In this document: positions 8,983 through 14,894 of the stretch, piece by piece
Numbering within the stretch: the first letter of the stretch is position 1
How the letters are laid out: each line of letters opens with the position of its first letter
Source of the DNA: Coffea arabica
Lineage: Eukaryota; Streptophyta; Magnoliopsida; Gentianales; Rubiaceae
Assembly: GCF_036785885.1 (NCBI RefSeq)
Contig: NC_092320.1
Location: 13,207,557 to 13,271,556 of the forward strand
Direction of reading: 5' to 3'
Length of the DNA: 64,000 nucleotides
Notes under the pieces: model-generated
The model's database searches: none
Seen by the model: only the letters and a program-made list of their open reading frames with translations
What the model was told of the DNA's origin: nothing
Translations under genes and position numbers: made by a program

Positions 8983-9053
8983 TAAGTAGATAAAGAGCCG
9001 AAGGCCTCTGATGACCTGGAATGGTTTTCGTCGTCCTCTCACGTGCCGCACAT

Positions 9054-9154
9054 GTGAGTCACCAGCCTCTTTTTTTCCGCACGATGCGCCAAATACTTCG
9101 CACGTGAGAGTCACCAGCCTCTTTTTTTCCGCGCGATGCGCCAAATACTTCCTC
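9054..9154 (+). repeat. Tandem duplication, two ~50-bp units
   Basis: Two copies of a unit beginning GTGAG and containing CACCAGCCTCTTTTTTTCCG followed by GATGCGCCAAATACTTC, starting at 9054 and 9104. The right copy runs into a pyrimidine-rich, UTR-like stretch (CTCTCTAGGGTTTTC). Confidence 0.8.
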
Positions 9155-10213
9155 TCTAGGGTTTTCTTAAATTTCCTCCGCCGCCGCCGCTTTCTCTCTT
9201 CTCCCCTTCTCTCCTTCGCCTCACCTTTATCCTCAGAAGCTAAACCCATCCCAACAGTCCTTGATCAGATCTTTCCCTCTTCCTCTTGTTCTCAAAATCT
9301 TTATTATCTCTCCTTCTCCTTTCCTTCCAACTCTTTGATTTTATTCTTGAATATTACATCAACTTTTTTATTTTTTTTCTTTATTCTCATGTTTACTGCG
9401 CCTGCCTGCCGTCCCCAATTCCCCACTCAACTCGCCACACCGGCTACTACGACCAATTTGTCATGTCTCCCAGCTCCGGACGTCACAGAATTTAAAAGCT
9501 ACCAGTTGCCACTTTCTGCTGGTCCCTAGGCTTTTCTTTTCTATCCACAGCACTCCACCCGTCCATCCGGCTCAAGCTTACAGCTAGATGAAGGAACAAA
9601 GCATAGGCCTCCACTACCCGTGCCAACTGCCTATTTGTTCCGTGTTTTCATTTAACATTTGAAGCTTCAAACCCTGTAAACGATACCTAACCTTTTCCAC
9701 AATCGTCTTTTATTTTCGTTCCTTGGCTGAGAGACTGCCGACTTTGTCTTGGCTGGGATTACTTTTGATTTGTTGACTTTTATTTTTCGGTCAAATATAG
9801 AACCGAGAGTGAAGCATTGACTGCTGCTTCCTCTCTATTGTTTCAGGTACTACCTCGGTTCTTCCGTTACTTTCCGTTAATTAGTGATTATTTTTCTCTC
9901 TTCTATTTGGTTGCGTCGATGTTTTGTCTTGTTTTTTCTGGAATGCAGCTAGAGTGTAGATATGTGGTGGCCCTCTTAGAGATGATCTGAAAGAAAATAT
10001 TCAATCCCAGATCTTCAAGCGAAAGTAGTAGAGTGAGGTATGTGCGATTTTCTCTAATTTTTTTCCTAATTATTTCATTTCATAGGATTTTTTTCTGAAT
10101 TTTCCTGAAATTTTTTTAGAATGGCAATATTGATTTTATTAGAAATGCCTCTACCGAAATTTTTCTGGCTGCTTTTCAAGTTTATTATTGCTAATTAATT
10201 GGATTACTGGAAT
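9155..10213 (+). other. Pyrimidine-rich, promoter/UTR-like sequence in segment 2
   Basis: Contains TCTCTAGGGTTTTC and CCGCCGCCGCC stretches typical of plant 5' UTRs, and a spliced-looking arrangement near 9846-9950. No protein domain recognised. A 172-codon open frame at 9011-9529 is low-complexity and crosses the duplication, so it is not called. Confidence 0.4.
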
Positions 10214-10409
10214 GGACAGGTTGTTGCAGTTAAGCAATTGGATAGAAATAGACTTTAAGGTAACCGGGAATTTTTGGTTGATGTTCTTATGTTCAGTCTT
10301 TTATATCATTCTAACCTTGTAAATTTAATTGGTTACTGTGCTAATAGGGACCAGAGGCTACTTGTCTATTAGTTCATGCCCTTGGGATCATTGGAAGATC
10401 ATCTTCATG
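10214..10409 (+). pseudogene. Receptor-like cytoplasmic kinase (PBS1-like) fragment
   Basis: One exon of the kinase N-lobe. GQVVAVKQLDRN holds the ATP-binding Lys of the VAVK motif, followed by [29 protein letters not shown] and MPLGSLEDHLH, the order seen in the RLCK-VII/PBL family. An in-frame TAA follows RNRL and a TAG replaces the residue after RLLVY, so it cannot encode a kinase. A GT donor follows at 10410. Other exons of the gene are not seen in the window. Confidence 0.85.
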
Positions 10410-11602
10410 GTATCATTTCAGGCATTCTTGTTCATTATCTTGTCAATTGTTTGCGGTTTAGTTATTGCATGCATTTTTAAGTTAAATTTACATGTTTACT
10501 GAAATTTACAAACTACATAAATTTTCTTAAGGAAGGCATGATGACTGTGTAAGTTTTGTTTAGTAAGTTAATTGGGTTTTTTCTACTTAAACTAACTTTT
10601 ATGTTGATTGCTCTTTCTTTACAATAATGCCATTTATAAGGAAAAATAAAATGCAGAACTAATGAAGCCTCAAGGATAGAGCTTAGGCTCAAACTTGCTT
10701 ATTCTAGGTATGGGGGTCAATATTCGTTTCAGGAAAAGGGGAAAGGTGGGGTTGAGGGCATATAAGTGGCATAGTATGGTGAATGGATGGTTTGGTGTTT
10801 TTAATAGTGGTGATAGCTGCTAGCATTGAAGAATCTTAAGTCCTTTAAGGTAATGCCTTCATTATTTTGTCATTTCTCTCCATTTTTTTTCCTTCCATGT
10901 TTGAACTATTGTGGTGTTGCTATTTTTTGTAATTATCAGCTGTTCTTTTTGCTTGTTTCATGGTTGTTTGTTTTGATTTTTCTGCCCTGAAATTTTCTGT
11001 TGGTTTTTTGTCCGATAAAATCCATCTAAAGATGACTATTATTTGTGTTAGTATGGCTTCTGCCTCCGATTAGTGATGCAAATTTACTTCTTTTTCAATA
11101 TCGAACCAGCCTTTGCATTTAGAATAATGTCTTCTTTAACTTTCTGCCTTTTGTTTTCCCTGTATTCTATACTTTTAGATGATTTATTATTGTTTTCCTA
11201 TTATTGTTGATCTATTAGGGTTCAGCTGCAGAAAGTGCTTTCTCGGGGATTTGATGAAAGTACTTGGCCACTCCAAACTAAAACCGGCAGGTATACTCTA
11301 CAAAAGATAAAAGGGACAATTACCTGCCATATTCACCCTTTTGTAGGTTAATACATACTTGAACATTTAAAATTGTACTTATGAGAAAATTGGAATAGCT
11401 ACTCAAACTTGGTATATTTGTAAAATTTTGACAAGATTGATAAACATGCTATATTGTTTACATGGTATTTTTCTTACTTGTATTTTGCTAAATGGTTTAA
11501 ACCATGCCATGAGATAGATGGATATATTCAATGATGCACTGGAATCTTTCTATTTTCATGCTTAATAGTTGCTATTAATTCATTTTCTATCTTCTGTTGC
11601 AG
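10410..11602 (+). other. Intron-like spacer in segment 2
   Basis: T-rich sequence with no recognised domain. Short exon-like blocks near 10655-10700 and 11218-11290 end in GT but their proteins could not be assigned; the first part may be the following intron of the kinase gene. Confidence 0.4.
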
Positions 11603-13154
11603 CTTCTAGAAATAGCCCAAGTTCCTGATGAACATGTGAGATTCAATTTCTTCTGGTTTCTTTACCTTTTAGCGAAATGCTTTTAACTGTTGGCATACTG
11701 CATGCAATCTTGTGCAATTTAAACATTGTTTCTTTAAATAACTATTTCTACATAAGAAGGTCCCAGGATTGATGTATGTAGGGGTATAAGCACGTTACAT
11801 ATAACCAGTTAGGTTAATCAGTATGGTTGTTTACTTAATGTGGAGTTAGATCCATCGACCTATTTAGGCAACTAAACAAGGGTATCCAGAATTAGCCCAT
11901 TCTTGATGTAACATCTTTTTCTTGGGTTACACAATTTCATAGGCATCATTTTGATATTAAAGGATTATGCTGCTCCTCTTTTTTTACAGGTGAATGAATT
12001 CAAGTTGATAGGGAAGTTCAAAATTTTCAATCCCAACAACTTGTAAGTGTTATGCTTCTCATTTGAAGCTAAAATATTATTTGCTTCAAGCACTGTGGGC
12101 AATGCTTCCTTCATGGAAAATGCAATGGAATGATATATTTCTGCTATCATATAGATGGGTGAACTTGAAAGCAATCAAAAGACTTGTACAAGAAAGTGCA
12201 CTGAAGATGGAGATTATTCCAAATCCAAAGGTTCTATTTCTTAACTATCCGTTCTGCATTCTGCCAATGTATTTGTTCTTCTATTTAATTTTGTCTGATT
12301 AATAGGAAGTAGATGGGGTGAAAGTTCTTCAACTTGAAACTGCTATTGGCGCTACAATAAGGATACATTAACCTTATCTCTTGATATTCATTTAAACATC
12401 TTTATTTTCCATTTCTTTCCATTTAGGTTTATCAATATGGCATTTCACATTCAGTCTCCTCTCTACCAACAACCAAAGGTAAGAAGTAAAATCATTTACT
12501 TTCAGCCCCCACCCCCAATCAGTTCTTTGATCATGCTATTGAATTCTGTTTTGAATACTATATGAATTGGTATTTATTCATGCATTTAACCTTTACAGTC
12601 CGACCTGTACACTTTGTCTGATGACGGCTATGTGGTCTGCAACGAGGCTAGGAAAAATCCAACTAACCCAACTATGAATTGGGACCTGAATTTAAGAAGG
12701 TTGAGATTTTAGCCCCCTATCTTTCTCCACAGGTTGAATTGTTTATATAGCTAATTGTTTTTTCACTTTTTTAGGTAGGCAACTTCTTAAGTCGTATCAA
12801 GTCTATTCCCAGTATTGTTGAACTAGACAGCCTAAAGATGAGTGGTGATGGTGGTTTGGATCTGGTATCACCCTGAAGGTAATACAAACTAACTACTTGT
12901 CTCCCTATTACTCTGTTTCCCTGTTACCCTGTTTCTGAAGCTTTATGGATGTATCTGTTCCTTGAAGATTTTCTTGTGATGTGGCAATTTGTGGTTGTAC
13001 AGTGGTTTGTTATTTCTTATTTAATGTCCATATGGCATATGCATTAATTTCTTCTTTTCTTTTTTTTTCCCCTTGTTTTAAGGGGAAAGTGACAATAACT
13101 GCAAAACCTGGAACCAAATTAGAAATTCCAGACAAAGTTGTAATTGCTGATAAG
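11603..13154 (+). pseudogene. UDP-glucose pyrophosphorylase (UGPase) fragment, C-terminal half
   Basis: UGPase makes UDP-glucose from UTP and glucose-1-phosphate. Exons on the plus strand: 11603-11635 (LLEIAQVPDEH), 11990-12042 ([13 protein letters not shown]), 12155-12230 ([23 protein letters not shown]), 12306-12362 (EVDGVKVLQLETAIGA), 12599-12699 (SDLYTLSDDGY, NPTNPT), 12775-12878 (NFLSRIKSIPSIVELDSLK) and 13083-13154 (KVTITAKPGTKLEIPDKVV). Exon order and residues follow plant UGPase. The exon between 12362 and 12599 is degraded, a TGA ends exon 12775, and both the N-terminal half and the last exon are missing. Retained introns show capture from genomic DNA. Confidence 0.9.
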
Positions 13155-14358: not shown

Positions 14359-14646
14359 GTGGAGCTTCCCACACATTCATTTGGCAACCAAGATACACGT
14401 GATGCTTTGTCTGCAGCAATCCACCATGAGAACAAAGCTGTCATGTACCACTGCAAATATCCGCTTTTAAGGTTTATTGATGACTTTATTTTCATGTCAA
14501 CGTCAAAGAAACGGGCCTCTTTGTTCTTCTCCCGGTTGCAAGGAGGATTTCATGGATACAACTGCTATATGAATAAAGGGAAATTTGGTGTAAATTTTGA
14601 TATGGATCATGTATCAGGATTCAGGTCAAATATACTCTATATGGGT
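14359..14646 (+). pseudogene. Telomerase reverse transcriptase (TERT) fragment
   Basis: The open stretch includes LLRFIDDFIFMSTSKK, the TERT motif C with its two catalytic Asp residues, then FFSRLQGGFHGYNCYMNKGK and NFDMDHVSGFRSN, matching the plant TERT reverse-transcriptase domain from motif C through D. The first ~28 codons (14359-14442) are less clearly TERT. Translation ends in TAA at 14647 right after the recognisable block. Only this piece of a gene that normally encodes a protein of over 1,000 residues is present, so it is a captured fragment without function on its own. Confidence 0.85.
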
Positions 14647-14648
14647 TA

Positions 14649-14670
14649 ACTCTATGGTTGACCATAGAGT
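14649..14670 (+). repeat. Perfect 9-bp stem with 4-nt loop
   Basis: ACTCTATGG, TTGA, CCATAGAGT. It directly follows the TERT fragment, near the right end of the Helitron-type segment. Its role is unknown. Confidence 0.7.
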
Positions 14671-14864
14671 AAATTTTGAAATGAAGCTTATGGATTTGAA
14701 GCTCAAGATAAGATAGCTAATTTGGATTCCTATTTTCGTGAAACAATTTTGCCTCCTACTTATTCATGTATATTATATTTAGCTGTGTACACAAATTATT
14801 AACTGACAAACATTTTTGTTCCATGAATCCATATGTCTAAGTGGGCATATTTTCTGTTTATCCC

Positions 14865-14894
14865 AACGCGCGCAGCGCGTTTTGTGCCTCCTAG
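14865..14894 (+). repeat. Helitron terminal hairpin and CTAG end (segment 2)
   Basis: AACGCGC, GCA, GCGCGTT forms a perfect 7-bp GC-rich stem. Nine bases later comes CTAG, followed by T. Confidence 0.82.

Follow-up and report, generated by a model that had tools for sequence, protein, structure and literature searches.

A gene-capturing Helitron of Coffea arabica carrying dead pieces of four host genes, within a stack of four Helitrons

The HelA Helitrons of maize, as described by Dong et al. (2011, PMC3288121), carry from 0 to 12 gene fragments per element, with a mean of 3, and their stepwise gain has been inferred from relatives that hold subsets of the fragments; the same account describes nesting, multiple termini, and a preference for inserting into other Helitrons or close to them. 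In the fungus Fusarium, composite FoHeli elements are described in which 5′ ends have received insertions and 5′ termini are doubled (PMC5148889). The features by which a canonical element is recognized here, including a CTRR end that follows a GC-rich hairpin about 10–12 bp upstream, are those given for the Mothra plant Helitrons (PMC4683698). We describe a Helitron, called B, in a stretch of 64,000 nucleotides of the coffee plant Coffea arabica (assembly GCF_036785885.1, contig NC_092320.1), referred to as the window. The window is C11:13207557-13271556, with position 1 at C11:13207557, and positions to the left of its start are written as zero or negative numbers. Contigs and loci carry our labels C and L.

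B is a further case of a type of gene-capturing Helitron that has already been described, although the arrangement of the stack in which it lies is unusually tidy. It resembles maize HelA (PMC3288121) in carrying several unrelated gene fragments, in their apparent stepwise gain and in nesting, but here the three nesting steps fall no more than 15 bases into the host 5′ end and are resolved to the base. FoHeli ends are non-canonical and Helitron2-like (PMC5148889), whereas the elements described here have canonical TC and CTAG ends together with gene cargo. Helraiser/Helibat shares with B a preference for AT targets, a 3′ hairpin terminator and the capture of host sequence; it is a bat element with capture by 3′ read-through (PMC4778049), while in B the cargo changes inside conserved ends. 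Mothra is likewise non-autonomous, has TC/CTAG ends and a hairpin near the 3′ end, and carries gene fragments with no RepHel of its own. The Mothra consensus is about 2 kb (PMC4683698), and the likeness considered here is one of features. No paper combining Helitrons, telomerase reverse transcriptase and gene capture was found in the literature searched.

The segment at 8983 to 14894 is a copy of a multi-copy, non-autonomous canonical Helitron, B, that carries dead pieces of four host genes (Table 1). A search of the genome (1.198 Gb) with the last 300 bp of the segment gave 41 matches. Ten of them, the window included, cover the whole query at 98–100%, and 31 cover part of it, mostly the last ~165 bp at 83–91%. 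Thirteen stretches were fetched, namely 12 match loci and the stretch to the left of the window. From 8983 to the 3′ end, the segment aligns in seven other loci (L009, L011, L012 and L014–L017), at 98.3–99.3% in the main blocks and 94.0–98.5% in short 5′ blocks, and about 49 bp near 9333–9380 are missing from L012, L014 and L017. L010 aligns from 9036; L013 aligns from 11456, with other parts of its copy further along C7; and L069, which was fetched later, covers 8983 to 14665. The remaining three of the 12, L018–L020, are relatives that hold part of the cargo. Altogether seven of the ten other B loci have both ends, and three are truncated or interrupted. The copies diverge from their majority sequence by 0.2–0.9%, and the full UGPase segment is found at 99–100% in 11 loci, again counting the window, on 9 contigs.

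Table 1. Features of the Helitron stack, with positions in the window
Feature	Position	Strand	Basis and remarks
Helitron A, 5250 bp, TC...CTAG, at the C/B junction	3733..8982	+	Junctions; presumed kinesin-5-like exons 5816-8362, further piece to ~8500 by eye
3′ terminus of A: 8-bp stem with one G-T pair, 3-nt loop, CTAG	8952..8982	+	CTAG at 8979-8982
Helitron C, 5235 bp in total, reaching to window -1502	1..3732	-	5′ end TCAACATAAGTAGATAACG, base 1 at 3732; signal peptide peptidase exons ~935-2220
Helitron B, base 7 to CTAG 3′ end	8983..14894	+	Copies compared; first six bases TCAACA at window -1508..-1503
52-bp tandem duplication in this copy of B	9047..9150	+	Other fetched B copies appear single-unit, judged from overlapping BLAST blocks
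PBL-type kinase module, ~845 bp, one exon ~10220-10411 with two in-frame stops	9970..10814	+	Pfam, PDB, genome comparison
UGPase 3′ part, exons and introns, disabled	11371..13324	+	Candidate donors C13:9.218 Mb, C14:11.06 Mb
Ureidoglycolate amidohydrolase (UAH) exon and flanking intron	13485..14008	+	Left edge at or left of 13485, where the fetched donor stretch begins
TERT fragment, 302 bp, from within the reverse transcriptase domain, 1-base frame change	14345..14646	+	Candidate donors C4:27.723 Mb, C3:27.045 Mb
3′ terminus of B: 7-bp stem, 3-nt loop, CTAG; next base T	14865..14894	+	Fold and copy comparison
Helitron D, first 15 bases (TCAACATATATAGAA)	14895..14909	-	The rest of D lies to the left of B, starting at window -1509, with the 3′ end at -6641

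The 3′ terminus of B is established because all 10 loci that keep it, the window among them, end at the same CTAG (14891-14894 here) and then differ; the base that follows is T in all 10. The stem of the hairpin stops 9 nt before the CTAG, and an equally good fold was obtained in 3 of 200 shuffled sequences. A preliminary description of this DNA, made from the letters of the window, had placed a hairpin and a CTAG-T terminus at 14894 and had proposed a search for other copies ending alike; the search was run, such copies were found, and the terminus is where it was said to be. At the other side, TCAACA forms the 5′ end in all nine other B copies that keep this end and is followed by TAAGTAGATAAAG, from which L017 differs by one base, so that TCAACATAAGTAG is the start of eight of the nine. 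The base flanking this end is A in four and T in five of them, and A in the window. Position 8983 was rejected as a true terminus, as it corresponds to base 7 of B in the copies and comes directly after the CTAG of another Helitron. The limits 8983 to 14894 given in the preliminary description therefore hold on the right, where the terminus is shared by copies, and fail on the left, where B is interrupted by two Helitrons.

B has the features of a canonical Helitron: a 5′ TC, a 3′ CTRR after a hairpin, insertion at A/T or T/T, and dispersed copies with sharp ends. No inverted repeats of 20 bp or more link its two ends (shorter lengths were outside the search), and no duplicated target word was seen by eye in the printed flanks of 6 copies. 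It also has the features of a gene-capturing Helitron, in that it holds host gene fragments with introns, and candidate donor loci lie elsewhere in the genome. The proposal that this is a Helitron-type segment is thus borne out by other copies sharing both ends, candidate donors on other contigs, and relatives that hold subsets of the fragments.

The four fragments all lie on the plus strand, in the order kinase, UGPase, UAH and TERT. The kinase exon matches Pfam PK_Tyr_Ser-Thr (E=1.9e-9), with PBL2 as its top PDB match (4.8e-15). The UGPase exons match Pfam UDPGP (1.2e-38) and the PDB UGPase entry 5weg (8.6e-71), and are 95% identical to those of the candidate donors, with 92–93% in the introns. 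The upstream UGPase exons are present at both donors and were not found in L009, the sole B copy tested. The additional UGPase-like loci L067 and L068 are less similar. For the UAH exon there is a PDB match to ureidoglycolate hydrolase (9.3e-12) and none in Pfam; its candidate donors are C6:4.212 Mb and C5:4.058 Mb, with 89% identity to the first, which was the locus read. On its own the TERT piece is weak: TERT makes up four of the six listed PDB matches, the best at E=0.072, and Pfam RVT_1 (0.13) is under the cut-off. Its 302 bp are 95% identical to C4:27.723 Mb, the donor locus that was read, where the open frame matches PDB telomerase reverse transcriptase at 2.7e-14.

At least 13 loci that are not B hold the kinase module, complete or in part, at 90–93%, and at least seven of them have its whole length. 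An intact kinase exon, 94.7% identical over ~300 bp, is present in two of the 13 (C22:62.278 Mb and C21:45.369 Mb), which would be the parents of the piece. Because the module occurs at non-B loci, the kinase piece of B may have come second-hand from relatives. The four gene identities proposed in the preliminary description are confirmed, three by database matches (for UAH in PDB only) and TERT through its identity to a telomerase-encoding locus. The fragments do lie in a row on one strand in the order proposed, the UGPase and UAH pieces with intron sequence, and the suggested look for parent genes gave candidate donor loci for each. We observed that every captured gene has two close candidate donors on different contigs (C13/C14, C4/C3, C6/C5 and C22/C21), as after a whole-genome duplication.

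To follow the state of the cargo, the window was aligned with nine further copies, L009–L017 (L069 left out). The two in-frame stops of the kinase exon are shared by all nine copies that cover it, including the window (L013 does not reach it); in L009, L010, L011 and L014 one base differs beside a stop, and that stop codon is kept. One stop and two frame changes in UGPase are present in all 10 aligned copies, and TERT has a 1-base frame change relative to its donor. Judged from these lesions, the cargo of B is dead, and it would have spread in that state. This bears on a rival idea, in which a chimeric gene of the host, or a transcript unit with a function, lies between Helitron ends by chance. 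The fragments are in sense orientation, some splice sites look intact by eye, and chimeric transcripts driven by Helitrons are described in a maize study (PMC4528327); but the inspected kinase and UGPase lesions occur in every aligned copy covering them, and the unit is repeated in the genome, its 11 copies lying on 9 contigs, which makes a host gene highly improbable. Still less probable, and close to negligible, is a segmental duplication or pseudogene cluster that arose without transposition. It would account for the flanks that are common to some family loci (L054 with L057, L035 with L043), yet the B copies that keep their ends have unlike flanks and break at the same two sharp termini.

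Relatives of B with other cargo suggest how it was gathered. L019 and L020 share 11123-14340 of the window (UGPase and UAH), with small gaps, and have a different 1.1 kb in the place of TERT; L018 has UAH and TERT, and of UGPase just the last exon; and the kinase exon block was seen in none of the three. The last ~151 bp are common to all of them and B. These subsets support a stepwise assembly of the cargo inside conserved ends, as far as it can be read from the copies compared. The preliminary description had proposed serial capture, which fits the candidate donors and the different subsets, less so the kinase module with its possible second-hand origin. Fragments could instead have been added by read-through, in which replication does not end at the 3′ hairpin, continues into genes beside the element and terminates at a new CTAG. 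Such capture was shown experimentally for Helraiser (PMC4778049), and the sense orientation of the named fragments would agree with it. On the other hand, the cargo beside the 3′ end differs among B, L018 and L019/L020 although they share the last ~151 bp, and at three further loci among the matches listed, of which two are on C21 and one is on C13, the flanks of the kinase module are separated by 38 bp; both observations point to change within fixed ends. Read-through is accordingly the less favoured route, unlikely but worth keeping in mind. Since the cargo changed between conserved ends, it would have been gained more by internal events (repair, template switching or recombination among family members).

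The missing first six bases of B are not directly before 8983, but 10.5 kb upstream, where TCAACA at window -1508..-1503 is followed by the complement of CCTCCTAG and the hairpin that form the 3′ end of C. TCAACA was expected there from the junctions of A, C and B, an expectation that was not recorded in writing before looking. Both C and A lie at an A/T between bases 6 and 7 of B. When the flanks of B are joined on the minus strand, TCAACATATATAGAA runs directly into TAAGAGCG, as it does at the intact 5′ end of L046 and other family members; B therefore sits 15 bases into D. The sequence TCAACATATATAGAA followed by TAAGAG is uninterrupted at three of the four printed reference loci, and the first 120 bases of D score 32.7 against L046, compared with 23.6 for the best of 5000 random segments. 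The 3′ end of D has the hairpin, CCTCCTAG and a T flank. All three nested insertions (B in D, and C and A in B) are at A/T. The ends of A are those suggested by its junctions. The cargo of C is identified by Pfam PF04258 (9.5e-34). That of A, which we take to be kinesin-5-like, gave no kinesin family in Pfam, and the only PDB match at E≤0.1 was a KIF11 chimera (E=0.048). The named fragments in A, B and C are all in sense relative to their own element; antisense cargo survives less often in maize, according to a review (PMC12477314).

Splitting near the 5′ end is not confined to this copy. Forty 5′ ends of the family were inspected (the window, 11 and 28 further loci), which are not all independent, as some share flanks (the two pairs named above). 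L010 and L048 are truncated. At L042 and L049 the 3′ end of another Helitron is joined at about base 6–8 of the family 5′ end, and at L018 a C-like element stands head to head at about base 15. The arrangement of the window seems to recur at L018: its remainder is at C20:15163645, and at C20:15175312, a distance of 11.7 kb, a 3′ end adjoins a family 5′ end in inverted orientation. L012 has a doubled 5′ terminus and flanks A...T. That it had simply entered another Helitron was rejected, since the second half of such a host does not stand at the 3′ flank; L012 seems to be a single element in which the 5′ terminus is doubled. Exact motifs gave 69 unbroken 5′ ends genome-wide (0 in the reversed control) and four in which another Helitron interrupts the first 16 bp, which makes 73. 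Three of the four (window, L042, L049) were picked by eye among five pattern matches and one came from another pattern; the two matches that were dropped, C4:48796859 and C12:43139886, are by eye not family 5′ ends. A comparison set of 3′ ends, with 11 intact sites, is too small to serve as a control. Four splits in 73 × 16 bp is one per 292 bp, and an even spread over the genome at that density needs about four million Helitrons. A bias of insertion toward 5′ ends is therefore likely, on a small count from related copies that includes three picks by eye where the reversed control gave 12 matches, and the 5′ ends of these Helitrons would be favoured landing sites. Tentatively, and at a little less than even odds, we propose that the first ~16 bases are a strongly preferred landing site in either orientation, probably as RepHel opens or occupies the end, that repeated hits produce stacks, and that firing from the outermost TC produces composites in which the 5′ end is doubled, L012 being an apparent case. 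We found no mention of a base-level hotspot at 5′ ends in the literature searched, some of it available in part, and it may still be in print.

Taken together, B would have gathered pieces of four host genes stepwise between conserved ends, and would then have spread with its dead cargo. On this reading, one copy entered an older Helitron, D, at a point 15 bases into its 5′ end, after which two younger Helitrons, C on the opposite strand and A on the same strand, split that copy of B at the A/T between its bases 6 and 7. We put the probability of this explanation as a whole at roughly 0.93. Several points weigh against it. No RepHel gene was found in B, the longest open frame of which is 179 aa; this was without a RepHel profile scan or a search elsewhere, and B is in this respect not an autonomous Helitron. 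The enzyme that drives its mobility would be RepHel supplied in trans. Gain alone does not explain which fragments B, L018 and L019/L020 hold; L018 must have lost UGPase, because its last exon remains. A generic scan of the window for hairpin and CTRRT gave three sites scoring at least 16, compared with a mean of 2.85 in 40 shuffles, which is chance level, and for this reason the case for the terminus of B was not rested on it; the scan also misses the 3′ end of A because of the G-T pair in its stem. The 5′ flank of D is C, which is unusual, not A or T. The 5′ end of A is weakly like those of B and C, in that 82 and 22 of 5000 random segments, respectively, score as high, in a draw that includes related stretches. 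Finally, a 3′ end joined to a family 5′ end gave five matches genome-wide against 12 in the reversed control, and a 3′ end joined to an inverted 5′ end gave four, one of them the window, against three, so that neither count is clearly above its control and the latter pattern is no evidence by number.

The remainder of the window holds other features. A hAT-like element, recognized by eye, lies to the right of B at 15050-18950; its inverted ends (AACCGG.../...CCGGTT) are imperfect, and within it 17553-17935 is repeated at 17933-18314 (99%). Open frames encode a tetraspanin of 265 aa (PF00335, 20294-21088), a Gag (PF03732, 24483-26742, in a GC-rich stretch adjoining 132-bp repeats with frames open on both strands) and a PMEI above the Pfam cut-off (30115-30477). 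At 50686-63719 there are four tandem units of ~3.6–4.1 kb, and the single unit tested encodes a PMEI-like protein, weak and under the Pfam cut-off. Rfam at gathering cut-offs gave no matches in 1-20000 of the window.

B is a clean example, resolved to the base, of how a gene-shuffling transposon assembles its cargo, with candidate donors, partly loaded forms and dispersed copies all visible in one genome. A landing preference for 5′ ends, if true, would help to explain the clustering of Helitrons and the origin of doubled 5′ ends, and composites with such ends, if true, would be a route for shuffling both ends and cargo.

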